NCBI GenBank assembly: GCA_013306675.1
Contig: JABLUY010000336.1
Span: forward strand, 1 to 31,256
Direction of reading: 5' to 3'
Origin: Thraustochytrium sp. TN22
Lineage: Eukaryota; Sar; Bigyra; Thraustochytrida; Thraustochytriidae
DNA: 31,256 bases
The notes under the pieces are model-generated. The model had not been told where the DNA came from. It did not search any database and saw nothing but the letters and a program-made list of their open reading frames with translations. Made by a program: the position numbers and the translations under genes. Shown here in pieces: positions 2,783 to 27,305 of the stretch (position 1 is the first letter of the stretch; each line of letters starts with the position of its first letter).

Positions 2783-5710
2783 TCACCTCCTTGCGTCGCT
2801 CTGGGGTTTGGCGCGAGGCTTGCGTGGCGTGCCGCCGGTGGAAGCGGCCGAGGACAGCGAGGCGGCAGTGGAGGCGCCGAGCGAGCGGGTCTGCGCGGCG
2901 AGCTGCGCTCGCAGATCGTCCACCAGACGCTTGTACTTCTTCAGGTCGACCGAGTCGCCGTTGCGCTTGGCCTGCCCCAGCTGCACTTTGCGGCAGCGAG
3001 CGGCGAAATTGAGCGAGCACACGGACTCGGGCGCGTTCCAGCGCACGGGCGAGATGTTGACGAACATGGCCACCTTGGAACCTCCCTCGAGCGAGTTCTG
3101 CAGCAGGTGCGTCAGCTTGGAGTTGCGGTAAGGCACGTGCTGCTGGCGCGCCTTGGGATCGCCCAAGGCGTTAATCACATCACCCAGCGCCGACAGGCTC
3201 TTGTTAATGTTCTGCGCCTCCTTGAGCCGGTCGCCCGTGGCGTCCGTCTTGCCCACGCGCTCGCTGCCGGCCAGGTCGATGAGGTTCAGTCGCGAGGCCG
3301 TCTTGGCGCCCGACACCAGGTTGCGGCCCTCGATCGCCAACATAAACACCAGGTGCGAGCGCGACGAGTGTTCGTTCATGCTGTGCGCGCCCACCGCGCG
3401 GTTGCGCTGCGCACGTGCCATGGCGCCGCGCACATCCTCCAGCGAGTCGACCGGGAGCTCCTCGAGGTCCTGCACGAAGACTTTGCCGCTCGTTGCCACG
3501 CGCAGGTCCAGCTTGGCGCCAGCCGCGTCGCCGCGCGCTAGCAGGTCGCGCACGGACTCGTTGTAGATCTCCAAGATGCTCAAGGAGAACGAGAAGGTCT
3601 CCTCCTCGCGGCGATCGCTCCGGAGCGTGAAGAGCCGCTGCAGCGCGCGCAGGTTCACGCCCGGGTCCTCCGCAGCACCTTCCATCGTGAACGTCTTGCC
3701 GCTACCCGTCTGGCCGTACGCAAAAATGCACACGTCAAAGCCGTCCAGCACGCTCGTCACGAGCGGGCTGATATCCTCGAAGACCTCCTCCTGCGTTGAC
3801 GTAGGCGGGAATACCGCGTCGAACTCGAAGCGGTTTGCCGTCGCTTCGTCGCGCGCCACCTCGATCTCGTTGTCTACCGGGAAGGAGGTCACATCCACGG
3901 CGCCCTCGGCCGTCCGCTTGCGCTCGGCGCTTAGCACGGGGCGCACACGGCAGAATACGCGGATGTTGCCCTTGAGGTTCATCAGGTCGTTGTGCACACG
4001 CTTGCGCAGCGTGCTCTCGCGAATGTACCGCTGCCTGTACTCCTCCATCTTGCTACCGAGAGCCTCCTGCAGCTCTGCCAGCGCCGCCGCCTTCTCCTCG
4101 TCCGCCTCCTTCTTGATCTCTGCCGTCGCGATCAGCGCCTCGTCGCGCTCCAGCTCTGCCGCCTCCACGCGCGAGGCCGCCTCCTCCTGGACTGCGCGCA
4201 GCTCCGCGCCGGCGCGCTCACGCTCTTCCTGCATCTCGCCCTGCAGTCGCTCCACCGTCGAGTGAAGCGCGTCTTCGATCTCCGCGCGCACCTTGGCAGC
4301 CTCCTCAAGCTCCGCGGCGTGTTCGCTGGCCATTTCGTCCTTGAGCCGCTCCAGCTCTGACAGCGCCGCGCTCGACTCCTTGAGCTGCTCCACCGTCTGC
4401 TGCAGCTTATCCTTCAGTGCAGCCTCCTCCGCCTCGTGTTGCGATTGCACCTCGGCTAGCTTCGCCTCGAGCGCCGTGCGGGCTGTCTCGATGCCCGCGA
4501 GCTCCGACAAGGTCATCTCGTGCGTCTTTTGGAGACTTTCGTGCGAGTCGCGGAGCGCCACAAGAGTATCGGTCGTTGTCGCATGCGTCTGGTGGAGCTC
4601 GCCCAGCTCGGCGCGGAGAGCCTCTTGCCCGGCACGCGACTCCTTGAGCTCAGTACTGACCGCCTTGAGCTTGGCGCGTTCTGCGTCGAGCTCAGCACTG
4701 GCCACCTCCTCCTGTGCGCGCACTTCGTCCAGCTCAGTGCTGCGCGCCTCGAGACCGAGGCGCGCCTTTTCCAGCTCAGCGCAGATCGTCTCGTGCTTGG
4801 AGCACGCCTCGTCCAGTTCGGCGCTCACCGCCTCGCGCTTGGCGCGCTCCTCGGCGAGCTGAGTGGACAGCACCTCGTGCTTGGCGCGAAGGTCTGCGAG
4901 CTCCGCGGAGCGGTCCTCCTCGACGGCTGGCGCTTTTCCGTCGGACTCAGAAGCGGGCGCTGTCTGCAGGAGAATGCTGATCTGCTCGCGCTGCCGCTCG
5001 CAGGCGCGGCGCAGCTCGTCGCGCTCGCGCGCGAGGTCCGCGGCCCGCTGTTGCGCCTCCTCGGACTCCTGGGAGAGCTTGGAGTACTCCTGCGCAAGAG
5101 AGTCGAGAGCATTCTCGTCCCCCTGCTCCTTGTCCTTGCGCAGCTGTTCGAGGCGCTCGAGTTGCTCGACGCGCGAGTCCTGCGCGCGCACGTGCTCCTT
5201 GAGCGAGTTCACCTGCTCACGGAGGGCGATCGCCTGCTCGCGCTGCTCGCGGGCCTGAATGAGCGCCGCCATCTTCTCGGCGATGTTGGCTTTCATCTGG
5301 TCCTCCCACTCGCTGACCCACGCGGGCTCCGCCGTATCGTCGCCTCCCTTGGACTCGGCGCGGATCGCCTCTGCGTCCTCCGCGCCGCCGTCGCCCTGCA
5401 GCTTCTTGCTGGCACCACTGTTGCTTGGCCCGAGGTTGGGCGCATGCGGCGCGTTTTCCTTGGTGAGGTCGGCGATCTGGGCCTCTTTCTCCGCAAAGAG
5501 CTGCTGGTACTCGCGCAGCACTTTGAGTTGGCCGAGCTCCATTTCCACGAGGAGCTGCTTGTAGACGGCGACCTGCCGCTCGGGGTCGAGCTCTTCGTCA
5601 TCGTCGGCGAAGTTGAGCTTGACCACGCTCTCCACGCTCTCCACGGCACGTCGCAGGTTGTCTTCGAGCCCGGACCGTAGCGCCCCGAAGGCGAGCCGGT
5701 TGATGAACAT
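2783..5710 (-). CDS. Kinesin-14 (C-terminal motor, minus-end-directed type)
   Basis: A 975-residue kinesin with its motor at the C-terminus. Residues 1-130 form a helical head (MFINRLAF...), and about 135-570 are an almost unbroken coiled coil rich in Glu, Ala and Leu. The neck and motor start around 565 with NLKGNIRVFCRVRP, the neck-motor junction typical of kinesin-14. The P-loop GQTGSGKT is near 666-673, switch I NEHSSRSH near 775-782, and switch II DLAGSER near 810-817. About 55 basic and Ser/Thr-rich residues follow the motor. The family moves toward microtubule minus ends and works in spindle organisation or retrograde transport. I chose the ATG at 5708-5710; the frame continues upstream to 6058, but that part is Arg-rich, not kinesin-like, and opposes a small frame on the other strand. 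Confidence 0.96.
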   Translation of the reverse strand: MFINRLAFGALRSGLEDNLRRAVESVESVVKLNFADDDEELDPERQVAVYKQLLVEMELGQLKVLREYQQLFAEKEAQIADLTKENAPHAPNLGPSNSGASKKLQGDGGAEDAEAIRAESKGGDDTAEPAWVSEWEDQMKANIAEKMAALIQAREQREQAIALREQVNSLKEHVRAQDSRVEQLERLEQLRKDKEQGDENALDSLAQEYSKLSQESEEAQQRAADLARERDELRRACERQREQISILLQTAPASESDGKAPAVEEDRSAELADLRAKHEVLSTQLAEERAKREAVSAELDEACSKHETICAELEKARLGLEARSTELDEVRAQEEVASAELDAERAKLKAVSTELKESRAGQEALRAELGELHQTHATTTDTLVALRDSHESLQKTHEMTLSELAGIETARTALEAKLAEVQSQHEAEEAALKDKLQQTVEQLKESSAALSELERLKDEMASEHAAELEEAAKVRAEIEDALHSTVERLQGEMQEERERAGAELRAVQEEAASRVEAAELERDEALIATAEIKKEADEEKAAALAELQEALGSKMEEYRQRYIRESTLRKRVHNDLMNLKGNIRVFCRVRPVLSAERKRTAEGAVDVTSFPVDNEIEVARDEATANRFEFDAVFPPTSTQEEVFEDISPLVTSVLDGFDVCIFAYGQTGSGKTFTMEGAAEDPGVNLRALQRLFTLRSDRREEETFSFSLSILEIYNESVRDLLARGDAAGAKLDLRVATSGKVFVQDLEELPVDSLEDVRGAMARAQRNRAVGAHSMNEHSSRSHLVFMLAIEGRNLVSGAKTASRLNLIDLAGSERVGKTDATGDRLKEAQNINKSLSALGDVINALGDPKARQQHVPYRNSKLTHLLQNSLEGGSKVAMFVNISPVRWNAPESVCSLNFAARCRKVQLGQAKRNGDSVDLKKYKRLVDDLRAQLAAQTRSLGASTAASLSSAASTGGTPRKPRAKPQSDARR

Positions 5711-6205
5711 GATGGCGCGGCCCGGCCGTCCCACCGTGACCGCACGCCGCCCGCCTGACCGCCGACGCCCTCGAGCGGCCGGAGCGAGCGCAGCGCGCTG
5801 GCGCACGCCCCGCGCACGGCTTTGCGGGGCACAAGCGTCTTCCGCGGGCTTTGACTGCCCCCGAGCTGGGGAGGCAGCGGAGTGAGTCGCCAGTGCTTGC
5901 CAGTTTGTTGCACGCTGACGATGACGGTTACGTGCCGCTAAGATGATGACGGTCGACGCGGACATGGAGACGTCGGAGTACTCCAAGGGCCACACGCTTA
6001 TTAACATCGACAAAAGAAAGGTTGGCATTGAGGACTTTGATTTGCCTTGATTTGACAAGGGCCTCGTTCGAGCCCGGTTTCACATGTCAATGTTCGCAAG
6101 ACAGAGAAGGCAGGGTAGCAAAGCAAGCCTCAGCACGAGCGCAGAGTGAGTGTACATCCATTCTTTTTAAAGGGGCGCGGGGCCGGGCATCGATCTGCTT
6201 CGGCG
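5711..6205. other. Spacer upstream of kinesin and downstream of SAXO gene
   Basis: GC-rich leader of the kinesin gene occupies 5711 to about 5880. A 35-codon plus-strand frame lies at 5943-6050 and is listed separately. From 6051 to 6205 the base composition drops, as expected for the 3' UTR of the minus-strand SAXO gene; a short T-rich/TTTAAA patch lies near 6164-6171. A tRNA B-box-like TTCGAGC at about 6067-6073 has no matching T-stem, so I see no tRNA. Confidence 0.5.
5943..6050 (+). CDS. Candidate 35-residue small protein or terminal exon
   Basis: A short frame starts at tandem ATGs (5943 and 5946) and ends with TGA at 6048-6050. It would encode 35 residues containing EYSKGHTLINID and ending KVGIEDFDLP, a balanced polar composition unlike chance translations of this GC-rich DNA. 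It lies between the 5' end of the kinesin gene and the 3' end of the SAXO gene, transcribed divergently from kinesin. A GTGAGT about 55 bp upstream (near 5887) and an AG just before the first ATG leave open that this is the last exon of a spliced gene, but I found no convincing first exon. I do not recognise the family. Confidence 0.35.
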   Translation: MMTVDADMETSEYSKGHTLINIDKRKVGIEDFDLP

Positions 6206-7537
6206 TCACGGCTGGAAGGCGGACGGGTTGAGATCGCGGTCGATGGCGATGTGCTGCGCCTTCCCGGTGAGCTTGTCGACGGCATCGACGTGCAGGCGCG
6301 AGTGCTCGTTGACGGAAAAGGTGACGAGGATCTGCGGGTAGCCGCAAGGCTTGGGGTCGATGCCCACGAGCTGAAAGGAGGCGAGCACCGGGTTCTCCGA
6401 AGCGCGAGACGCGGCACCCTGGCGCACGGTGATCTGCACGGAGGTCTGGTTGTCGGTGACGGTGGTGAAGACTTGTGCGTGGCTCGCCGGCAGGCGCTCG
6501 CGCTCGGCGATCATGACGTGAAAGTGGTCGTTGACGGTCTCGAGACCGATGGGCACACGCTGCACGGGCAGTTGCCAGCCACGAAAGGTGTCGCGCGCCG
6601 TGGAGCTGCCCTGGAAGCGTTCGTGGCCCACGTGCAGGTTGCCAGCGGGCGGCACGGGCCGCGCGGGCTGCACGCCGTGCGGCGCCTGGAAGCGATCGCG
6701 CGCCTCCGTGGCATCCTGGAAGGGCGCGTTGGTGGTGGCCGAGTGTGCCGGGCCGTGGCTGCGCTCCACAGGCTGCGCCGGGTGCGCCACAAAGGCGTCG
6801 CGCGTAGTCGTGGTGCCATAAAAGTACGCCTTGTTGGGCTCCCAGGGAATGCGCTCCGGTAGCGTACGCATCGGCATCTCGTGTGCCACGAAGGTGTCAT
6901 GTGCCGTCGAGTGGCCATGGAAGCGCTGGTCTGTCGGCAGCACGTCCTGCAGCGTCTTGCCGGACGGCACGACGGGCTGGGCGCGCTCCTGCGTGCCGGG
7001 CGCGCCAAATGCCTGGCGCGTTGTGGTGCCGTCGTAGAACTCCGAGGACGTGCCCACGGTCACATGCGTGGCGCGCGCCAGCTCGCTGGGCGCCGGCGGC
7101 ACGGCCGCCGCGTGCGCCGGGTAGCTGTCGCGTGTCGTCGTGTTGCTGTAGAACGGCAGCGCCGGCCGCTCCGCGGGCCGCGGCGCCATGGACGCCGCCG
7201 GCTCCGCCTTGTGCGCCACGTAGGCGGCGCCCGAGGTCGTTGTGCCGTAGAATCGCGTGTTACTCGGCTGGAACTTCTCCTCCGCTACCGTACGCGGCGC
7301 CGCCTCGATCACGTGCGCGCGGTAGGTGTCGGCGCTCGTCGTCGACCCGTAGAACCTGCCGTTCTTGTCCGTGCTCAGGTTCGCCGGCGGCGGCAGGTCC
7401 AGCTTGCCGTGCGGGCCCACCGGGTGCGCCACGAACTCCGACCGCGCGGTGGTCTGCGCGTCAAACGCAGGCCGCACCTCGCGCCACACTTGCACGCGCT
7501 TGTCGCCCGCGACGTGCGTGTTCACCAGCTCCTGCAT
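6206..7537 (-). CDS. SAXO-type axonemal microtubule-binding repeat protein fused to an Hsp70 substrate-binding domain
   Basis: A 443-residue protein in two parts. Residues 24-321 hold nine units of a 15-residue motif, consensus RFYGTTTxRDxFVAH, at 24, 61, 95, 128, 166, 205, 238, 272 and 307, spaced 33-39 residues. This is the pattern of the SAXO (FAM154) Mn repeats that bind and stabilise ciliary microtubules. Residues 328-434 align by eye with the Hsp70 substrate-binding beta-sandwich: IGLET, QVFTTVTDNQT, ITVRQG, ASFQLVGI, PQILVTF, LHVDAVDKLTGK, each with a close Hsp70 counterpart in the same order. There is no Hsp70 ATPase domain and no helical lid. I chose the ATG at 7535-7537; upstream residues are Arg-rich and start only with GTG. 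The likely site is the axoneme; the role of the Hsp70 module is unknown. Confidence 0.88.
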   Translation of the reverse strand: MQELVNTHVAGDKRVQVWREVRPAFDAQTTARSEFVAHPVGPHGKLDLPPPANLSTDKNGRFYGSTTSADTYRAHVIEAAPRTVAEEKFQPSNTRFYGTTTSGAAYVAHKAEPAASMAPRPAERPALPFYSNTTTRDSYPAHAAAVPPAPSELARATHVTVGTSSEFYDGTTTRQAFGAPGTQERAQPVVPSGKTLQDVLPTDQRFHGHSTAHDTFVAHEMPMRTLPERIPWEPNKAYFYGTTTTRDAFVAHPAQPVERSHGPAHSATTNAPFQDATEARDRFQAPHGVQPARPVPPAGNLHVGHERFQGSSTARDTFRGWQLPVQRVPIGLETVNDHFHVMIAERERLPASHAQVFTTVTDNQTSVQITVRQGAASRASENPVLASFQLVGIDPKPCGYPQILVTFSVNEHSRLHVDAVDKLTGKAQHIAIDRDLNPSAFQP

Positions 7538-7931: not shown

Positions 7932-8163
7932 GGCCAAAGTATGGCTTCGGTTCGTGGATAGGTATGGTATGGTAGCTAGCTACAAGAAGACCCGAACACA
8001 GCGCGCACGGCAGGCAGCCAAAGTATGGCTTCGGTTCCTGGATAGGTATGGTATGGTAGCTAGCTATAAGAAGACTCGAACACAGCGCGCACGGCAGGCA
8101 GCCAAAGTATGGCTTCGGTTCCTGGTAGCTAGCTACAAGAAGACTCGAACACAGCGCGCACGG
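7932..8163. repeat. 84-bp minisatellite, three units
   Basis: Three direct repeats start at about 7934, 8018 and 8102, each beginning CCAAAGTATGGCTTCGGTTC and ending AACACAGCGCGCACGG. The period is exactly 84 bp. Units 1 and 2 differ by only a few substitutions; unit 3 lacks 15 bp (an ATAGGTATGGTATGG segment) and diverges after its last GCACGG. Each unit contains a palindromic TAGCTAGCTA. Both the period and the deletion are multiples of three, so one plus-strand frame stays open through all units (about 7903-8229), but it has no ATG at its start and no known product. On the minus strand each unit carries GTTCGAGTC, a B-box look-alike without tRNA pairing. Confidence 0.9.
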
Positions 8164-11703: not shown

Positions 11704-13077
11704 TCAGATCAGGCGCTCGAGTGCGCCCTGCAGGACGCGAAGGTACGCCACGGCGCCCTCTCGGTCGCCGCGCTCAACGAGATCGCCGATCTCGTGCGTG
11801 AGCTTCTGCGCATGCGCAACGTCCTCGAGCGGGATGCGGCGGGCCACCTCGGGCTCCTCCGAGGCGGTCGGGCAGACGCTGCTGCTCGACGAGCTCGTGC
11901 GGCTGCGCGTGAGGCGCCGCGCCGACTTCAGGGTCGTCTCCGACGCCGCGTCGGAGTCAGCGCGCGCGCGCTTCGAGCTGCGCTCCACCGGCGGCGAGGC
12001 CTTGTCCAGAATGTGCGCCGTCATGGCGGCGTCGAAGAAAAAGGGCTCGCTGCCCTGCGGCCCGAAGCTCGCCTTGGTCGCCGCGACCTTGTCCGCGTAC
12101 GCGTCCATGATGGCCTCCTGGTCGACGGCCGGGTTGCTGTACTTGTTGTTCTTCTTGGACCCCACGCGGAAAGTCCACGAGGTGATCTGCAGGTTGCCGC
12201 ACGACGCGCGCACCGTGTAGGTGCCGGTGGAGTGCTTGCGGTCGGCCGTGGCCTCCAGCATGACCAGGGACGGGTCGCGCGAGTGCCGCACCAAGCCGCA
12301 CTCCTTGAAGGGCAAGGTGGTGCCCGGGGACGCGGCCATCCTCTCCGGGCACTCCAGGCTGATCTTGTTGCCCACCACGGAGGCCTTGGGGATCAGGGTC
12401 TGCACGGCTTCGGCGTCGGCCAGGAACTCGAGCTTCAGGTCGGCCAGGGCCTCCGGGCACGGCAGGCGCAGCACCATGAGCGTGTCGGCCAGCGCGCGGA
12501 GCTCCTTGCAGAGGAGGCGCGTGGGCTGCTGCAAGATGCTCAGCCGCGGCAGAGACGGCGGCGACGGCGGTGCGCGCAGCAGTTCGTCCTCCAGCTGGGG
12601 CGGGACGGGCTGCGGCCGCGGAGTCTGCGGCTGCAGTTCCTCACAGTCGAGCAGCTCAGACAAATCGTCGCCCGGGCAAGCCAGCAGTGTCATCGCCTGC
12701 GGCAGCAGCTCCTCATGCGGCGTCATCGCCTGCGGCAGCAGCTCCTCATTTGCCAGCATCGCCTGTGGCAGCAGCTCCTCATGCGGCGTCATCGCCTGCG
12801 GCAGCAGCTTCTCATTTGCCAGCATCCTCTGTGGCAGCAGCTCCTCATGCGGCGTCATCGCCTGCGGCAGCAGCTCCTCATTTGCCAACATCGTCTGTGG
12901 CAGCAGCTCCTCATCCAGCTGGTCGAACGACATGTCGCCCGAGAAGAGATCCTCCATCATCGGCAGCGGCGACGATGGCGGCATGCAGAAGCCCGAGTCC
13001 GGGAGGTCTCGGAGGAGCACGATGTCCACGGCGCCACCGTCCACCATGATGTCAGAAGCCACGAGCGTCTCCTCCAT
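11704..13077 (-). CDS. Unknown nuclear-looking protein, tandem copy 1, with 11-residue repeats
   Basis: A 457-residue protein I do not recognise, one of two tandem copies. It has an acidic-hydrophobic N-terminus (MMEDLFSGDMSFDQL), then residues 56-130 with nearly seven 11-residue units alternating EELLPQAMTPH and EELLPQAMLAN. A Pro-rich stretch follows (150-178). The central region, about 180-350, has beta-strand-like segments (KISLEC, LVMLEATA, GTYTVRAS, WTFRVGSKK). A basic cluster SKRARA lies near 368, then a Ser run, and a C-terminal helix (IPLEDVAHAQKL to GALERLI). Activation-like N-terminus, proline linker, beta-rich core and basic signal would suit a transcription regulator, but that is inference from composition. 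The start ATG (13075-13077) and flanks are shared with copy 2. Confidence 0.8.
   Translation of the reverse strand: MEETLVASDIMVDGGAVDIVLLRDLPDSGFCMPPSSPLPMMEDLFSGDMSFDQLDEELLPQTMLANEELLPQAMTPHEELLPQRMLANEKLLPQAMTPHEELLPQAMLANEELLPQAMTPHEELLPQAMTLLACPGDDLSELLDCEELQPQTPRPQPVPPQLEDELLRAPPSPPSLPRLSILQQPTRLLCKELRALADTLMVLRLPCPEALADLKLEFLADAEAVQTLIPKASVVGNKISLECPERMAASPGTTLPFKECGLVRHSRDPSLVMLEATADRKHSTGTYTVRASCGNLQITSWTFRVGSKKNNKYSNPAVDQEAIMDAYADKVAATKASFGPQGSEPFFFDAAMTAHILDKASPPVERSSKRARADSDAASETTLKSARRLTRSRTSSSSSSVCPTASEEPEVARRIPLEDVAHAQKLTHEIGDLVERGDREGAVAYLRVLQGALERLI
12687..12912 (-). repeat. 33-bp coding repeat in two alternating types (66-bp higher-order unit)
   Basis: Nearly seven tandem 33-bp units encode EELLPQAM followed alternately by TPH or LAN. 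Because the two types alternate, the array probably grew by duplication of a 66-bp pair. Units differ by single substitutions, for example EK for EE and QR for QA. The paralogous gene at 14082-15230 has only one EELLPQA unit at the matching place, so expansion happened after, or contraction after, the gene duplication. Confidence 0.92.
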
Positions 13078-14081: not shown

Positions 14082-15230
14082 TCAAACCAGACGCTCGAGC
14101 GCGCCCTGGAGGACGCGAAGGTACGCGACAGCACCCTCTTCGTCGCCGCGCTCAACGAGATCGCCGATCTCGCGCGCGAGCTTCTGCGCAAGCGCAACCT
14201 CCTCGAGCGGGATGCGGGCCACGGCGGTCGGGCAGACGCTGCTGCTCGACGAGCTCGTGCGGGTGAGGCGCGCCGATTTCTTCAGGGTCGTCTCCGACGC
14301 CGCGTCGGAGTCGGCGCGCGCGCGCTTCGACCTGCGCTCCGCCACCACCGGCGGCGAGGCCTTGTCCAGAATGTGCGCTGTCATGGCGGCGTCGAAGAAA
14401 AAGGGCTCGCCGCCCTGCGGCCCGAAGCTCGCCTTGGTCGCCGCGACGTTGCCCGCGTACTCCTTCATGATGGCCTTCTGGTTGACGGCCGGGTTGCTGT
14501 ACTTCTTGTTCTTCTTGGACCGCACGCAGAAAGTCCACGAGGTGATCTGCAGGTTGCCGCACGACGCGCGCACCGTGTAGGTGCCGGTGGAGTGCTTGCG
14601 GTTGGCCGTGGCCTCCAGCATGACCAGGCACGGGTCGCGCGAGTGCCGCACCAAGCCGCAATCCTTGAAGGGCAAGGTGGTGCCCGGCGACGCGGGGCAC
14701 TCCAGGCTGATCTTGTTGCCCACCGTGGAGGCCTTGGGGATCAGGGTCTGCACGGCTTCGGCGTCGGCCAGGAACTCGAGCCTCAGGTCGGCCAGGGCCT
14801 CCGGGCACGGCAGGCGCAGCACCATGAGGGTGTCGGCCAGCGCGCGGAGCTCCTTGCAGAGGAGGCGCGTGGGCTGCTGCAAGATGCTCAGCTGCCGCGG
14901 CGACGGCGGCGACGGCGGCGCGCGCGGCAGTTCGTCCTCCAGCTGGGGCGGGACGGGCTGCGGCCGCGGAGTTTGCGGCTGCAGGTCCTCACAGCCGCCG
15001 AGCAGCTCAGACAAATCGTCGACGAGGCAAGACTGCGTCGACACCGCCTGCGGCAGCAGCTCCTCACTCACTTGGTCGAACGACATGCCGCTCGAGAGGA
15101 AATCCTCCATCATCGGCAGCGGCGACATTGGCGGCATGGAGAAGGCCGACTCCGAGAGGTCTCGAAGGAGCGCGATGTCCACGGCGTCGCCGCCCACCAT
15201 GATGCCAGAAGCCACGAGCGTCTCCTCCAT
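14082..15230 (-). CDS. Unknown nuclear-looking protein, tandem copy 2
   Basis: A 382-residue paralogue of the gene at 11704-13077, in direct orientation and sharing its start context, Pro-rich segment, beta-rich core (GNKISLEC, LVMLEATA, GTYTVRAS, WTFCVRSKKN), basic cluster, Ser run and C-terminal helix ending GALERLV. It has a single EELLPQA unit where copy 1 has nearly seven, and small in-frame length differences, for example loss of ERMA near the middle and a shorter segment before the last helix. In stretches I compared by eye, such as 12007-12090 against 14361-14445, the DNA differs at only a few sites per 85 bases, so the duplication looks recent. Both frames are intact. Function unknown; the regulator-like layout is inferred only from composition. 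Confidence 0.8.
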   Translation of the reverse strand: MEETLVASGIMVGGDAVDIALLRDLSESAFSMPPMSPLPMMEDFLSSGMSFDQVSEELLPQAVSTQSCLVDDLSELLGGCEDLQPQTPRPQPVPPQLEDELPRAPPSPPSPRQLSILQQPTRLLCKELRALADTLMVLRLPCPEALADLRLEFLADAEAVQTLIPKASTVGNKISLECPASPGTTLPFKDCGLVRHSRDPCLVMLEATANRKHSTGTYTVRASCGNLQITSWTFCVRSKKNKKYSNPAVNQKAIMKEYAGNVAATKASFGPQGGEPFFFDAAMTAHILDKASPPVVAERRSKRARADSDAASETTLKKSARLTRTSSSSSSVCPTAVARIPLEEVALAQKLAREIGDLVERGDEEGAVAYLRVLQGALERLV

Positions 15231-19118: not shown

Positions 19119-22100
19119 ATGGCGGGGCACCGCGCCGAGGACGCGGGCGCCGAGGGCCCCGCGCGGCGGCGCGGCGGGTCGGCGCAGCTGCTGGCGCCCG
19201 GGAGCGAAGCAACGGGGAACGCGACGGCCGCGCCCGCGGAGCAGGACGACGCGCTGGAGCACAGGCCGCCGGTGCTGGGGCTGCGCGAACTGAGCAGCTC
19301 CAACCTGTCGATGCTGGGCGGCGGTGCGAGCAGCGCAGCGGACTGCCCGGTGTGCGCCGGCGCCCAGGGCCAGCTGCAGGGCGCGATGCAGTCGCAGCAA
19401 CATGGCCTGCAGCTGGGCCAGATGCTGGCGCACCAGGCGCAGCTTTTGCCGCCTGGGCTTAATTCAGGGTCGTCGTTGCAGCCGCAGAGCGGTGGTCAGC
19501 TGGACCTGCACGCGGGCCAGCAGCCGCCGAGCGAGTACCAGCAGGAGCAGCACTACCATCACCACCACTACCATCACCACCACCACCACCACCACTACAG
19601 CCTCGCCGGCAGCACCGCCGTCTCCGGAACTGGGGCAAGCGGCGCAGCGTGCGGCGGCTGCCCCGCGTGCAGCCACCCGCTGCGGCAGCTCGCGCTGATT
19701 GGCACGGCGCAGGGCGGGCCGTCCCTGGATGCCTCGTCGCGACAAGCCGCGTCGGACGCCGCGCCGCTCGGGGACGAGCGCGTCCGCTTCAAGCGCAAGT
19801 CCTCCGTATATAACGACGACAGGTGGGAGGTGGACGAGCTGGATGCAGACACTCCGCCCCCTGGGCCGTGCAAGTGCGCGGACGTGGTAGTCAGTCAGCC
19901 GGCGTCGACACTGCTGGTTCTCATGTGGTTCGCCCTGAGCGGCATATTTTACGTGCAGGTGCAGCGGACGTCGCGAGGCACGCTGGGCGTGGGCGACCTG
20001 GTGGGCCAGGCTAGCGCGCACCTGCTTGTGTCGGGCGTGCTCATGGCGCTGCACGCAAGCGCGATGCAGGCAGCAGGCTCGCGCAAGCACGAGGTGCTGC
20101 GCACGCTCATGAAAGACGTGCCGCTGCCGGTGTGGGTCGTCTTGGGCGCCGCGCACCTGGTTGGCCACGCACTGCTGCTGGGTGGGCTCGCCGTGCTGAG
20201 CGTGTCGCTCGTGCAAATGAGCAAGCTCGTGGAGCCAGCGCTGGCCATCATCATGGCAAATCTGCGCTGGGTGCCGGCGCAGAGTCGTCCTTCGAGCTCG
20301 CAAGTGGCCTTCGCGTTAGTCCTGGCCGCCGGCGCCGCGGTAGCCGCGCTGCCGTCGCCTGGTTTGCTCTCGGGCGTCCTGCTGGTCCTCCTGTCCAGCG
20401 TCCTGCTGCAGTGGCGCTCGCATGTGGTGCGGCGCATGATGGCCAAAATCGACGTGGACGCCGGCGTGGTGGCATTCGCCATGACTAGTGCAGTGGGCTT
20501 CTTGCTCTCGCTGATGCTCCTGGCCGTCCTGTACATGACGAGCCTCTCACTCTTCACTGGCCACATCAACGTGGAGACCGGTCTGTACTACTTCGGCGTC
20601 AACGCGCTGAGCCTACTGGTCGCACAGCTGCACTCGCAGGGGGCGCACGAGGGCCTCAAACTGCTCAAGCGTGTCGTCATCGCGCTCATGGCCGTCCAGG
20701 TGCAGTCCGAGCACCTGGATATGGCACAGTGGGTCGGCGTCGCGGTCGTCTTTGTGGCGTGGATTGGTCTGGATATGGATCGCCACGCCGTGAGCCCGTC
20801 TCGCGCGCGCGCCATTGCCGCCGTGCTGGCCGCACTCGTGCTCTTTCTGCTCGTGGACAGTGGCCAGCTCCACCGCCTGGCAGGCGTCGAGACTTGGGTC
20901 TTTCACCGTGACATGCGCTTGTACGCGCCGGGCATCAGCGAGAATGGCCGCATCGAGCAGCCGCGGCCGTTCTGCGAAATCTACGAAGACCAGCTCTACA
21001 GCGTCTGGGTGTACCCGTTCGGGCCGGATGCCACCGTCACGCGACGCTGCCCGACCGAGGTGGTCTACTGCGCCTACGCCGAGTGCATGGACCGCTTCGC
21101 TGGCGCGAGGCGGCTGAACTTGGCGCCGCTCGCGCGCGGCACCGCCTACGAATCCTTCGTGCGACACCACATGTGGTACAAGGTGAAGCACAAGCGGCAG
21201 TTCGTTCACCACGTGCAGTCAGTGGCCATGATCTCGCTGCTCGTGAAAAAGCCCGGCATCTGCGTGCGCATCCTGGGTGATGCGCGCTGGCACTGCCACG
21301 GCGATCAGAGCTGGCGCTCGCTCGAGTACGACCCGCGCAGCCTCGGGTCGATGCCCTTTTTCGTCCCGCGCAAGCCCATCTTCTTGCGCGACGAGTTTAC
21401 CACTTTCACTTCGGTGACGCGGTCCAAGCGCGTGGCGGGCTCGGACCTCGGCGACGAGATGCGCGCCTTTGCAGGCCTCAGTTTTATGCCTTATCTGACG
21501 CACTTTACGGAGCGCGATCAGGGACTGCCCCTGGCCCACGGCTACCTCTTCATGAACGCCAAATTTGGACCGGCCGTCAACTGGCCGCCAGGCGACGCCG
21601 TGGATCCAGTCTTGGTCTCCATTCAGACCTCTCCGCGTTTCCGCAAGATGCTCCTCGCCGAGAAGCTCGCGTACTTTCATCAGTACAACCGACGGTACGG
21701 GCCCATTGGGGCGCGCGATGGCGTGACACTCAAGTTTTTGCAAAGCCAGGGCGTTGACGCATACTTTTCCGGCTGCTTCTCCTCTCTGGTGGACATTTCG
21801 CGCGACCTGTACGACGCCCCGCGCAACGAGACTTTCCTCGTGGACCTGGACGGCCAGGAGACGCTGCTGCCGGAGGCCGTGCGTCGCGGCGCCCGTATCC
21901 GCAGCGCGCGCCCGGCCGTATCCATCGTCCGCGACGAGGAGGGCTTGCTGCACTCGTCCTTCGACTTGCTGCGCACCTTCGCGGAGCGCGCCAGGCTGGT
22001 GGTCACCTCGCGCATGGATATTGGCCTCGCCGCGCTGGCACAGCGGGTTCCCGTGGTTTTCATCCCGGCCTCGTCCTCGCTCTCGCCCGATGCGGGCATC

Positions 22101-23048
22101 TGGGATGACGGCGCGGAAGTGGCTGGCACGCTTTTCCATGTTCTGAGCAAAAACCGCCGGCTGCCCGCGACCTTCAACTGGACACAGCCTCCGCCAAACC
22201 CAGGCAACCATGAGGTGGACCGACAGCGCGCGCGGCTGTGGGATCACGTTTCCACGCGATCGCAACAGTTTGCCGAGACAGCGCAGCTTTTCGGCATGGT
22301 GCCGCTGCGTCGGCTCGGTGCCGGCGAGCCATTCGGGCCCGATGCGGCGCACGAGCTCTTCCACCTCGCATTAGCCACCGCCGCCGACATGACGCCGGCC
22401 ACCCTGCGCCTCGCAGAGAGCGTCTTCCGTTACCATCCCAACGCCAAGCTCATGGTGTACTGCAATGACGCAGGCGTGCGCCACACGGATCTCGTCAAGC
22501 TCGCACTCACAGGCTACGACGTTGAGGTCACCACCTTTGACCTCGTGCAGCAGCTGCGCCAACTGCGTCTAGATCACAGCCTCGTCAAGCGCCTTGTCAC
22601 GCACCTGCGCAGTCACCCCAATGACATTACACTCCTTCCGGCAACGGTGCTCTGGAACTACGGCGGCGTCTTTCTGCGCAGGCACGACGCCGTCCTCACG
22701 CGCACGCTGCCCCTGGCCATGCAGGAAGCCTGGCAAGACGGCGCCAGTCTCCTCATCTTCCCCAAGGCCTCCGCGCTGCTCTCTCGTGCCACCGAGCTCT
22801 TCTTGCGCAATCCGCAGCTGTCCTTTGAGAACGCTTGCGTGCAGGCCATCAACGAACATACCTTCGACCCGCACACCGCCGGAATCGCGGCCCAGCATGA
22901 TGAGTCCGGCTTCACTGTCTTTGGTGGGACAAACACTTCCAGCCAGGTCCTCAAGCTTACTGATGGCGCCTTCTTCGCTGGCGGCTGCTTGGCTGAAAAT
23001 TCCACCTGTGTCAGCTTCCGCGACGACGCCTGCATCTTCTGTCCATGA
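19119..23048 (+). CDS. Fusion of sugar-phosphate/nucleotide-sugar transporter, pyruvyltransferase-like and GT32-like domains
   Basis: A 1,309-residue membrane protein. Residues 1-260 are soluble and include a histidine cluster at 145-161. About 263-585 form nine or ten membrane spans resembling the triose-phosphate/nucleotide-sugar transporter family, for example LSVSLVQMSKLVEPALAI. After a lumenal stretch, residues about 775-985 match polysaccharide pyruvyltransferase-like proteins: GDEM, NWPP, IGARDGVTLKFL, YFSGC (Cys886) and VVTSRMDIGLAAL. About 1074-1309 resemble a GT32-type glycosyltransferase around LWNYGGVFL (YGG 1181-1183). The inferred role is to import an activated sugar into the Golgi and use it there in decorating a glycan. 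The usual His of the SRLH motif is Asp967, and the GT DXD position reads RRHD. The ATG at 19119 follows a GCG-rich leader; upstream only GTG occurs in frame. Confidence 0.82.
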   Translation: MAGHRAEDAGAEGPARRRGGSAQLLAPGSEATGNATAAPAEQDDALEHRPPVLGLRELSSSNLSMLGGGASSAADCPVCAGAQGQLQGAMQSQQHGLQLGQMLAHQAQLLPPGLNSGSSLQPQSGGQLDLHAGQQPPSEYQQEQHYHHHHYHHHHHHHHYSLAGSTAVSGTGASGAACGGCPACSHPLRQLALIGTAQGGPSLDASSRQAASDAAPLGDERVRFKRKSSVYNDDRWEVDELDADTPPPGPCKCADVVVSQPASTLLVLMWFALSGIFYVQVQRTSRGTLGVGDLVGQASAHLLVSGVLMALHASAMQAAGSRKHEVLRTLMKDVPLPVWVVLGAAHLVGHALLLGGLAVLSVSLVQMSKLVEPALAIIMANLRWVPAQSRPSSSQVAFALVLAAGAAVAALPSPGLLSGVLLVLLSSVLLQWRSHVVRRMMAKIDVDAGVVAFAMTSAVGFLLSLMLLAVLYMTSLSLFTGHINVETGLYYFGVNALSLLVAQLHSQGAHEGLKLLKRVVIALMAVQVQSEHLDMAQWVGVAVVFVAWIGLDMDRHAVSPSRARAIAAVLAALVLFLLVDSGQLHRLAGVETWVFHRDMRLYAPGISENGRIEQPRPFCEIYEDQLYSVWVYPFGPDATVTRRCPTEVVYCAYAECMDRFAGARRLNLAPLARGTAYESFVRHHMWYKVKHKRQFVHHVQSVAMISLLVKKPGICVRILGDARWHCHGDQSWRSLEYDPRSLGSMPFFVPRKPIFLRDEFTTFTSVTRSKRVAGSDLGDEMRAFAGLSFMPYLTHFTERDQGLPLAHGYLFMNAKFGPAVNWPPGDAVDPVLVSIQTSPRFRKMLLAEKLAYFHQYNRRYGPIGARDGVTLKFLQSQGVDAYFSGCFSSLVDISRDLYDAPRNETFLVDLDGQETLLPEAVRRGARIRSARPAVSIVRDEEGLLHSSFDLLRTFAERARLVVTSRMDIGLAALAQRVPVVFIPASSSLSPDAGIWDDGAEVAGTLFHVLSKNRRLPATFNWTQPPPNPGNHEVDRQRARLWDHVSTRSQQFAETAQLFGMVPLRRLGAGEPFGPDAAHELFHLALATAADMTPATLRLAESVFRYHPNAKLMVYCNDAGVRHTDLVKLALTGYDVEVTTFDLVQQLRQLRLDHSLVKRLVTHLRSHPNDITLLPATVLWNYGGVFLRRHDAVLTRTLPLAMQEAWQDGASLLIFPKASALLSRATELFLRNPQLSFENACVQAINEHTFDPHTAGIAAQHDESGFTVFGGTNTSSQVLKLTDGAFFAGGCLAENSTCVSFRDDACIFCP
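19551..19602 (+). repeat. CAC/CAT repeat encoding a histidine cluster
   Basis: A run of CAC, CAT and TAC codons gives residues 145-161 of the fusion protein, about thirteen histidines with three tyrosines. It lies in the N-terminal soluble region before the first membrane span. Confidence 0.9.
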
Positions 23049-23132: not shown

Positions 23133-25310
23133 TCATTCCGCTTCAGGTGTCAGAATTTGTAGGGGACTGCCGTCAATGCTGCGCTCCTCGCCAGCCACCG
23201 CCTCCTTCATGACGGATGTGGATCCTTGATCATCCTCCGACTGTGATGATCGTTGGTGCTGTTGTTGTTGAGAATGATGGTGCTCTTGGAGTGGTTCCTG
23301 CTGCTGTTCCTGTTGCTGCTGGTGCTGCTGTTGCTGCTGGTGCTGCTGGTGCTGGTGCTGGTGCTGGTGTTGGTGCTGGTGCTGGTACTGTTGCTGCTGC
23401 GGCTGCGGCTGCTCTGGCTGCTCCTGCTGCTCTTGATGTGTCTGTTGCGACTGCGTGTGCATCTTCTGCACCTCCTGCACCTCCTCCTCCTCTTGCTGCT
23501 GGCGCTGCTGGTGCTGCTGGTGCTGCTGGTGCTGCTGGTGCTGCTGGTGCTGCTGGTGCTGCTGGTGCTGGTGCTGGTGCTGCTGGTGCTGCTGATGCTG
23601 CTGGTGCTGCTGGTGCTGCTGGTGCTGTTGTTGCTGCGGCTGCGGCTGCGGCTGCTCTGGCTGCTCTGGCTGCTCTTGATGTGCCTGTTGCGAGTGCGTG
23701 TGCATCTCCTGCACCTCCTGCATCTCCTCCTCCTCCTGCGGCTGCTGCTGCTGCTGCTGGACTTGAGCTTCTTCTTGTTGGCGTTGGTGTTGACTTTGTT
23801 GCTCAAACAGGTGTGCCTGCTGATTTCCCTGCGCTTGCAGGTGCGTTGAGGCTTGCGCTCCTTGTGACTGCGCTCCAGGGCTACGCTCGTCGGAAGGTGC
23901 CCCCCAAGAAGAAAGCGCCTGTACGTGAGCCGGTGAAGAATTCAGGTCACCCACCCAGCTTGGTGCAGGGCACCTCTGCTCAGGGGGCAATGTCTTGTTG
24001 TGTCGGCAAACCAGCATCCACAGGAGCTTCGCCCGTTCGAACCACTGCTCAGCACTAAGGTGGCACCTTAGCTGCTTCGCTTGAGCCTCACGAACAAGCT
24101 CCTCGGGTGATCGGGGGACGCTAGCGTCCCCGTTGCCGGACGTGTCCTGCTGCGCTGACAATTGAATTGCACTTGTAACGAGACTCTCGTATCGCGCTTG
24201 CTGCTGTTTTGCGTGGTGAGTGAAGAAGTTGCACTTGCGAGTCATGTGCGCCAGCTGGGCGTTGGTTTGGGCGAGGTCATTTGCCGCCTTGGAGTGAGCC
24301 TTCCGTAGTTGCACGATCGCCGTGTCCCGGTTTTGGATTTGGATCTTGAGATGCTCGATTTCCTCCTCGCGGGCCCTGAGGGCCGAAAGCATCGCCTTGC
24401 GTTGCTCGAGAAGCTTCCGCGTGCCGGCCGTGTACCCTTGCATCTTCTCGACATACCAGGTGGACAACTTCTGAACTTGTAGTTGCTTCTGCACAGCCTC
24501 ATGCATGATGCTGCCCATCCTGGCGCTGAGTTCGTCAGGCTCACTGCCGAGGTCTGTAAAAGCGCCGCTGCCATGGTATCCACTGCCGGCGCCACCGTTC
24601 CCGCCTTGCATGTCATGCATCGAGTGTGTCGAGGACACCCTCGGACCCAAGTTCGGTTCGACAGGGACGCCTACCGCATTCGTCGGTGACGTACCGCCAT
24701 GCCGAGCATACTGCAGAGGCACAGTCGGACTGCTCCGGTTCCAACTGCTATTGCTGCTGCTGCTGCTCGACGCGTGCGTGCTTTGTACCGCGTGCGTGCT
24801 TTGCACCGAATGTGTGGAGGACGCCCTCGGACCCATGCGCTGTCCATCCGGGGCGGAAGCCGGAGGCGACCAGGATCCACCGCTGTGCAGTGTATACTGC
24901 AGAGGCATACCCGGGCTGTTGCCGTAGCTGCTGCTGCTGCTGCTGCTACCACTGCTACTTGCCGCTGGCTGCCGAGTGGTTCTGCTAGAAGACGTTGCTG
25001 CTCCGTGATAACCAGGCTCCATCCGAGGTCGCTTTGGTTGGTCCCCATGTGAGATTGACACCTGGGTGCTCGAGGCGCTCGCGCTCTGCCCAGATGAGCT
25101 TCCGGACCACGCTCGTTTCATCGTTGGCGTCTGCGCACTGACATAGGTCGGGTGTCTCACCTGTGCATGTGGACCGGTCTGCTGCGTGTGTGGATCAGCC
25201 TGCTGAATGCCCGTTGCAGACTGACGTGCGCTTGACGCGGGTTCTTCTGCATGTGGCCGCCAACTCCCTTGCAAATGCGCCGGTCGAGTATACTGCTGTT
25301 GTTGTTGATG

Positions 25311-25365
<55 letters not shown>

Positions 25366-25430
25366 GTCGGAACCGACACATACGTTCGCTGCTGAGGTTG
25401 TAATTGCTGCTGATGTCGAAGCAGCTGTTG

Positions 25431-25476
<46 letters not shown>

Positions 25477-25533
25477 CGTTGCAGCTGCTGTTGCTGTTGA
25501 AGCTGTTGCTCCTGCTGCTTCTGTCGCTGCTCC

Positions 25534-25604
<71 letters not shown>

Positions 25605-25724
25605 CTGTTGCTGCTGTTGCTGTTGCTGCTGCTGCTGCTGCTGCTTTCGTTGCAGCTGCTGTTGCTGTTGAAGCTGTTGCTCCTGCTGCTTCTGTCGGTG
25701 TTGAAGCTGTTGCTCCTGCTGCTT

Positions 25725-25764
<40 letters not shown>

Positions 25765-27305
25765 GGCTGTTGATGTTGTTGCTGCTGAGGCTGCTGCTGA
25801 GGCTGCTGCTGGGCCTGCTGCTGGGCCTGCTGCTGGGGCTGCTGCTGGGGCTGCTGCTGAGGCTGCTGGAGTTGCTTTGACTGACTGTGAGTGGCTTGGG
25901 GCATTTGCGGTCTTGGCTGTGTTGGCGGCCTGATTTGCGCTTGCTGGTGCTGTTGCATTTGCTGTTGCGTTTGCGTTTGCGGCTGTGGTTGCTCCATTGA
26001 AGAGTCTAACTCCTTTGCAGAGTCCAGCTCCTTTGCAGAGCCTAGACGTTGGCGCTTCTGCTGTTCTTGCAGGTCGCGTAGTTGCTGCTGCCGGCGTTGA
26101 TGCTCTGCCTTTTGCAGTTGCACCTTCTGCAGGACCTCCTTGTGGCGCTGGAGCTGCTCGGGCGTCTGCTGCCCGTCAAGACTCTGCTCTGTCGGAGAGG
26201 ACGCCTTCGGAACGAAGTCGTCTGCGCTTGCTTCTGCAGCCGCCTTGGCGGGCGCGTGCTGCTCCTGCGCGGCGCCCTCCGCGGGCTTCGGCGGATGCTG
26301 CAAGGGCTTTTTGGAGGCCGCTCCCGCCGGCGGGCTGTTGGGCGGCATCTCCTCGAGGAACATGTGCGAGCTGCGGACGGTCGGTGCGTACGTGCGGTAC
26401 GTCGCGGCGGACTGGGCCGCGACCGAAGGCAGCTCAGAAATCGTTCGCGCAGAAGCGCCGACAGCGGCAGCGGCGGCGGAGGAGGAAGAGGCGGAAGGCG
26501 TTTTGGCGGAAAAGAGAGGACTGGTGGTCGGGGAGGTGGCGCGCGAGTCACTGGCGAAGCCACGAAGGCTGCCCACGCCAATACGGCGCAGCGAGATACT
26601 GCCAAAGTAGCGCGAGGTGTCCTTGCCGCGGCGGATGGAGCAGGTGATGACCTCGAGCGGCGCACCCTCAAGGGCGCGGCGAAGGGTATGCACGATAGCG
26701 TAGTGCTGATCCTGGACCTCGTCGAAGAGCGCCCTTTCAAAGGCCTCGTAGGAGGTCTTCTCGGCGGCGAGCTTCTTGCTGATCTTGGGCTCGTCGAAAG
26801 GTTTGGCGAGGTCGAAGCGGGCCAGAGCGATGACGACGCTGTTTTCAGGAGTGACCTGGAGCATGATGCGGATTCCTTTGCCGTCCATGAGGTTGCCGTC
26901 CGGACAATCGGCCACACAAGCCTCGAGGAAGCGACTGATGATGGGGTCCGAGTTCATCTCGGCCTCCGGTGGCGAAGCAGGTGTGGTGGGAGCGTGGTCC
27001 TCGTGCGAGATGGAAGACGGAGGGGACACGGCGGCCTTGGGCGAGTCTGGCATATCAGCCGCGAGCGAACTCTCCGCACGCGACTTGTTCACGTCGCGCG
27101 GCGTGTCCTCGCCGTGGTTGCCCAGGTCCAAGTGCTCGTCGAGGTCTTCGTCCTCGTCTTCGTCAATCAGCAGGTTGATGATCTCGCCTCGCTGCCGCTT
27201 CGTCGGCGACGGCCTCCTGATTCCCGTTGCGGCCCCGGCGGCCGCAGCGGCGCCGTCCTTGGCGCCGTGCTCGTGGCCGCCATTGCGGTGGTTGGACTCC
27301 GGCAT
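23133..27305 (-). CDS. Giant polyglutamine protein with N-terminal domain and coiled coil
   Basis: A 1,390-residue protein. The start (27303-27305) is followed by an Ala/acidic region with a basic patch (RRPSPTKRQRGE), suggesting the nucleus. Residues about 115-245 form a complex, probably folded domain (SRFLEAC, HTLRRALEG, SRYFGSISLRRI) shared with the protein at 29332-31008. A Ser/Ala linker follows, then 450-650 of glutamine-rich sequence with several pure Q runs, the longest 37 residues (25533-25643). A second Ser/Pro/Thr linker leads to a coiled coil at about 925-1050 and a Trp/Cys-containing block (AEQWFERAKLLWMLVC). The last 230 residues are glutamine-histidine repeats. The organisation suggests a nuclear or RNA-granule scaffold or a Mediator-like coactivator, but no specific family was recognised. 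The frame is unbroken through every repeat. Confidence 0.85.
23290..23760 (-). repeat. Segmental duplication with glutamine-histidine arrays
   Basis: Two roughly 240-bp blocks near the 3' end of the polyglutamine gene encode related strings: EEEEMQEVQEMHTHSQQAHQ (around 23680-23740) and EEEEVQEVQKMHTQSQQTHQ (around 23440-23500), each followed by an EQPEQPQPQ linker and a QQH or QH array. The block was duplicated in frame, and each copy's QH array then changed length on its own. Confidence 0.85.
25315..25880 (-). repeat. CAG/CAA tracts encoding polyglutamine
   Basis: Several CTG/TTG (plus-strand) tracts separated by imperfect copies of a KQQEQQLQQQQQLQRK module (about 25470-25530 and 25650-25720). 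The longest run, 25533-25643, encodes 37 glutamines from mixed CAG and CAA codons; 25318-25364 is nearly pure CAG. A further set of 12-bp CCTGCTGCTGGG-like units (25790-25870) encodes QQAQQQPQ repeats. Confidence 0.92.

Follow-up and report, generated by a model that had tools for sequence, protein, structure and literature searches.

A thraustochytrid fusion of Mn (SAXO) repeats with an Hsp70 substrate-binding domain, a probable FAP363-type microtubule inner protein

The Mn helices of SAXO proteins and of Toxoplasma SPM1 are described as binding, at 8-nm intervals, the interface between alpha- and beta-tubulin within a dimer (PMC9564825; PMC8144581), and a minimal Mn syntax, [TS][TS]x4[YF], has been published (PMC10973386). 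SAXO1/SAXO2 (FAM154) and SPM1 carry arrays of such repeats; the passages describing them do not speak of an Hsp70 domain, and Toxoplasma has separate thioredoxin-like proteins, TrxL1/2, beside SPM1. The closest described system is FAP363, a microtubule inner protein (MIP) of the Chlamydomonas ciliary doublet (PDB 6U42), for which Mn motifs and a globular HSP70-like domain are described; the relevant passages present that domain as a bridge and mention no groove ligand (PMC7590530). A survey of MIPs classes FAP363 as 'Mn repeat (only)', the passages concerned making no mention of Hsp70 (PMC10973386). Mn-type MIPs such as FAP363 are described as joining N to C. A literature search returned nothing joining an Hsp70 substrate-binding domain with a microtubule inner protein. 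Judged by title, none of the matches listed was relevant to a SAXO and Hsp70 fusion, none of those on SAXO and stramenopiles concerned the present protein, and none of those on Hsp70s without a nucleotide-binding domain reported a natural protein consisting of the substrate-binding domain only.

The window analysed here, a stretch of 31,256 nt from Thraustochytrium sp. TN22, contains a minus-strand frame that is open throughout its 443 residues (Table 1). This frame had been read in a first-pass annotation as nine SAXO/FAM154-type repeats continuing without interruption into an Hsp70 substrate-binding beta-domain (SBD-beta) with no ATPase domain, and both the single frame and its two parts were upheld. 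Pfam HSP70 matched the C-terminal part at 84.2 bits (E 7.9e-24), and since the profile was covered only at positions 392-499 of 599, the N-terminal nucleotide-binding domain (NBD) is missing; no residues are left for the helical lid either. The predicted SBD has eight strands and, in the overlay on DnaK that the same annotation had named as a check, superposes on 1dkx_A with an rmsd of 1.1 A; mean pLDDT for the whole model was 45.1, with low confidence in the repeat part.

Table 1. Features of the fusion gene, with positions in the window and residues of the encoded protein.
Feature	Residues	Window positions	Strand	Remarks
Whole coding frame, Mn (SAXO) repeats then Hsp70 SBD-beta	443 aa + stop	6206..7537	-	
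Conserved N-terminal motif LVNTHVAGDKRVQVW	4-18	7484..7528	-	candidate end for N-to-C self-association (putative role)
Nine Mn-type repeats	25-35, 62-72, 96-106, 129-139, 167-177, 206-216, 239-249, 273-283, 308-318	6584..7465	-	motif matches, shuffle control, PDB profile search
Pfam SAXO1-2 (PF05217), best stretch	71-251	6785..7327	-	
GWQLPVQR	320-327	6557..6580	-	occupies place of Hsp70 interdomain linker (DnaK VLLLDV)
Hsp70 substrate-binding beta-domain	328-435	6233..6556	-	
C-terminal tail	eight residues	6209..6232	-	where Hsp70 has lid (SBD-alpha)

Pfam SAXO1-2 was matched at 34.9 bits, above its curated cut-off of 26.5. The repeats lie 33-39 residues apart, compared with the 32 residues per repeat described for SPM1, and eight of the nine follow the minimal Mn syntax, one being degenerate; in 5000 shuffled sequences such matches averaged 0.65 and never exceeded six. 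A profile of the repeat part, built from five of the eight fusion proteins described below, obtained 11 matches in the PDB at E values up to 10. Six were natural, namely SAXO1 (chain 8ou0_D, the best match, E 9.8e-14), 8glv_zj ('Flagellar associated protein'), two STOP-family chains and two SPM1 sequences, and five were designed proteins (E 0.012 to 1.5). The STOP-family chains are axonemal, and an axonemal location of the fusion protein is likely. Nine repeats on one protofilament would span ~72 nm, a mismatch with the 48-nm repeat, and by analogy with FAP363 the chain may cross protofilaments.

The same fusion, which the first-pass annotation had proposed to look for in other proteomes, was found by protein searches in seven other proteins (P0002-P0007 and P0016). 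P0002, 66% identical to the window protein (P0001), is from Hondaea fermentalgiana, which NCBI taxonomy places among the thraustochytrids; P0003 is from an MMETSP transcript set and contigs, and P0004 from MMETSP0100. HSP70 was matched in all seven fusions scanned (window protein included) and SAXO1-2 in five of these, at E values up to 1, while P0016 carries both families by precomputed annotation. The junction is the same in all eight proteins, two of which come from transcript collections: the join of SAXO repeats to SBD-beta is real and common to the relatives. Since the searches scored only candidates sharing exact words (8000 or 200 candidates), the family is possibly wider than eight. 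The public record names P0002 'Heat shock 70 kDa protein', which is misleading for a fusion without the ATPase domain, and genes of this family are liable to such misnaming.

Against the other seven, the window protein shows 51-84% identity for the SBD but 27-59% for the repeats; by these figures the SBD changes more slowly. The N-terminal motif of the window protein is 53-87% identical to that of P0002-P0007 and 27% identical to that of P0016 (over 11 aligned residues), with W18 invariant in all eight. In a tree of 25 SBDs, those of the eight fusions form one clade (support 100/100), whose long stem attaches close to DnaK of the bacterial/mitochondrial type. The fusion gene is the one SAXO1-2 locus found in its own genome and, among the 10 HSP70 matches listed there, the only one to cover the SBD alone. 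Four groupings with possible SBD donors, named after the tree was seen, were compared by the AU test and none was rejected: with the own-genome Hsp70 that we take, from familiar sequence features, to be of mitochondrial type (p 0.139), with those that we likewise take to be cytosolic and ER types (0.133), with a wider mitochondrial/bacterial set (0.135) and with one bacterial set (0.365).

The SBD-beta of Hsp70/DnaK shares its eight strands and central groove residues with the fusion protein, but is accompanied by an ATPase domain, an allosteric VLLLD linker and a lid; lacking all three, the fusion protein cannot go through a chaperone cycle. In all eight fusions the linker reads GWQLP, the position of DnaK D393 is P, and R467, which forms a salt bridge with the lid, is missing; its partner D431 is kept in six. 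D479 is changed in six and the N/D481 position is variable. The arch loop GG405-406 is replaced, G405 being kept in one fusion and G406 in none. Site-0 positions F426, V436, I472 and V474 are identical throughout the family, and every one of the eight retains V440 and L484, through which substrate binding is signalled to the ATPase.

For a quantitative comparison, the eight fusion SBDs were set against those of 17 Hsp70s (E. coli DnaK, three encoded in the window's own genome and 13 of the 35 non-fusion matches of the protein searches), using groove-site lists from passages of PMC8604352 and PMC4408060, NBD-contact and latch lists from passages of PMC8215388 and PMC4595643, and 20000 draws of control positions matched for conservation in Hsp70s. 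At ten groove positions (sites 0, -1 and +1, without R467) identity was 0.93 versus 0.65 among the fusions and 0.76 versus 0.49 to the Hsp70s, with 0.001 and 0.0006 of draws as high, fractions that rank the contrast and are not true probabilities since the sequences are related; adding R467 changed them to 0.0035 and 0.0095, respectively. Identity at the NBD contacts K414, N415 and D481 was 0.17 versus 0.66 among the fusions (0.0003 of draws as low) and 0.20 versus 0.49 to the Hsp70s (0.08 as low). A broad list of 30 cavity positions showed a weak effect (0.69 versus 0.58 among the fusions, 0.03 of draws as high; 0.50 versus 0.41 to the Hsp70s, 0.05 as high), and the latch pair D431/R467 was jointly not unusual (0.25 and 0.15 of draws as low). 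On a first groove list, hydrophobic positions were 0.92 alike among the fusions versus 0.68 for other hydrophobic SBD positions, and the narrower literature-sourced lists agree. Our reading of these residue patterns is that the groove is probably still in use, severed from ATPase and lid.

The first-pass annotation was aware of no earlier description of such an architecture, a statement overturned by FAP363. Besides the published description, a structure match placed the SBD fold in one chain of the solved structure 6u42, and chain 5F of 6U42 would, from two papers and the PDB code, be FAP363; a categorically new architecture is thus ruled out. The two proteins have the same domain order, an N-terminal Mn array followed by a C-terminal Hsp70-like domain with neither NBD nor lid. 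They differ in that FAP363 has six Mn motifs and the fusion protein nine, and the searches made no link between the two by sequence; the fusion SBD is near enough to Hsp70 for 84 bits in Pfam. Since FAP363 was absent from the best 60 of 70, 69, 78, 65 and 71 matches, and no 6u42 chain was among the 11 PDB matches of the repeat profile (E up to 10), the likeness rests on architecture and fold. Taken together, these findings indicate that the fusion protein is probably a thraustochytrid FAP363-type MIP, its design known from a green alga; new are the spread beyond green algae and the pattern of groove kept and coupling lost. If so, both green algae and stramenopiles have this MIP design, which may then be of early eukaryotic origin. 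The same genome holds a RIB43A gene (one locus, E 5.6e-41) and marks of motile flagella, DM10 domains (eight matches) and a radial-spoke protein; SPACA9, also considered as a partner, matched neither this genome nor any control genome, a result that carries no weight.

As a FAP363-type MIP, the protein would run with its Mn repeats along the luminal face of the protofilaments of flagellar doublets, one short helix per tubulin dimer (~8 nm), and its SBD-beta would be a docking domain that links adjacent inner filaments, which in Chlamydomonas are two copies of RIB43a. The domain may also aid N-to-C self-assembly, with which the conservation of the N-terminal motif is compatible, and the kept groove would probably grip a fixed partner peptide. 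Such a groove-held peptide is plausible given the N-to-C joining of Mn-type MIPs and the behaviour described for BiP, whose protomers oligomerise, even when lidless, by taking one another's linker into the groove (PMC4608358). For the lidless DnaK SBD, weak and rapid peptide binding is quoted (kon 2e4 per M per s and koff 12.5 per s; PMC6017645), so the groove would hold on durably only if the lattice brought the two partners into contact. We tentatively suggest that the Hsp70 groove could act in flagellar microtubules as a permanent, ATP-free clip on one fixed peptide, either of RIB43a or of the next molecule's N-terminus. If this were true, chaperone client binding would have become a lattice-building joint, and the same would be predicted for FAP363. 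The family is in any case a natural experiment, an Hsp70 groove without ATPase and lid in which the groove core is kept and the coupling surface lost, and gives a way of asking whether a structural latch can be made of a chaperone groove. When candidate groove ligands were ranked by a crude, home-made score, the N-terminal motif and repeat 7 (KAYFYG) were top-ranked windows in some members only, and the ranking was set aside as too rough.

Several other explanations, not mutually exclusive, bear on how the SBD is used. The first-pass annotation had offered a docking or client-holding module and, alternatively, a structural beta-sandwich reused as a MIP domain. An ATP-independent holdase, with the groove binding unfolded axonemal clients and the Mn repeats anchoring it along the flagellum, would account for the four invariant site-0 residues, but it lacks a lid, has lost R467 in every fusion and would inherit the weak, fast binding quoted for lidless DnaK, and in FAP363, its precedent, the domain serves for docking; we regard it as distinctly improbable. 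Client holding found no direct evidence, whereas the kept groove core and the loss of ATPase contacts, linker and R467 are better explained by fixed docking or a clip. The structural alternative is supported. In its strictest form, fold reuse only, the beta-sandwich would be a rigid spacer or bridge with an empty groove, as the bridge description of the FAP363 domain and its passages' silence on a groove ligand would allow; groove residues are partly core residues, conserved anyway, and the broad cavity list shows a weak effect. Against this stands the excess conservation of the hydrophobic groove positions, on which the first and the narrower sourced lists concur, and we consider an empty groove somewhat unlikely.

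The origin of the fusion allows further readings. Were two genes merely read as one, an identical junction would hardly recur in eight proteins, two of them from transcript collections, and such a gene-model artefact is scarcely credible. Convergence, in which this family and green-algal FAP363 each joined SBD-beta to Mn repeats independently, agrees with an Mn part closest to SAXO1 among PDB chains, no 6u42 chain being among the 11 matches, with the long stem near bacterial/mitochondrial-type DnaK and with the failure of the AU test to reject any of the four donor groupings; against it speak the shared domain order, the fact that both proteins are without NBD and lid, and the RIB43A partner gene found in the genome, and it appears unlikely.

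Other features of the window were also recorded. Immediately downstream of the fusion gene and co-oriented with it is the gene for a kinesin of 1081 aa with a C-terminal motor domain (2783-6028, minus strand; Pfam Kinesin E 3.8e-109, residues 694-1015), and upstream lies a tandem array of period 84 (7933-8125; 2.3 copies, 97% matches). Two neighbouring minus-strand genes, at 11704-13077 and 14082-15230, are paralogues, 81% identical over 353 aligned columns, with no Pfam family at cut-off in either; an EELLPQxM-type repeat is expanded in the former and nearly absent from the latter. A plus-strand frame of 1309 aa (19119-23048) has an N-terminal half that is membrane-rich by eye and a weak hint of polysaccharide pyruvyl transferase (E 0.22), and a minus-strand frame of 1390 aa (23133-27305) contains very long glutamine and histidine-glutamine tracts.
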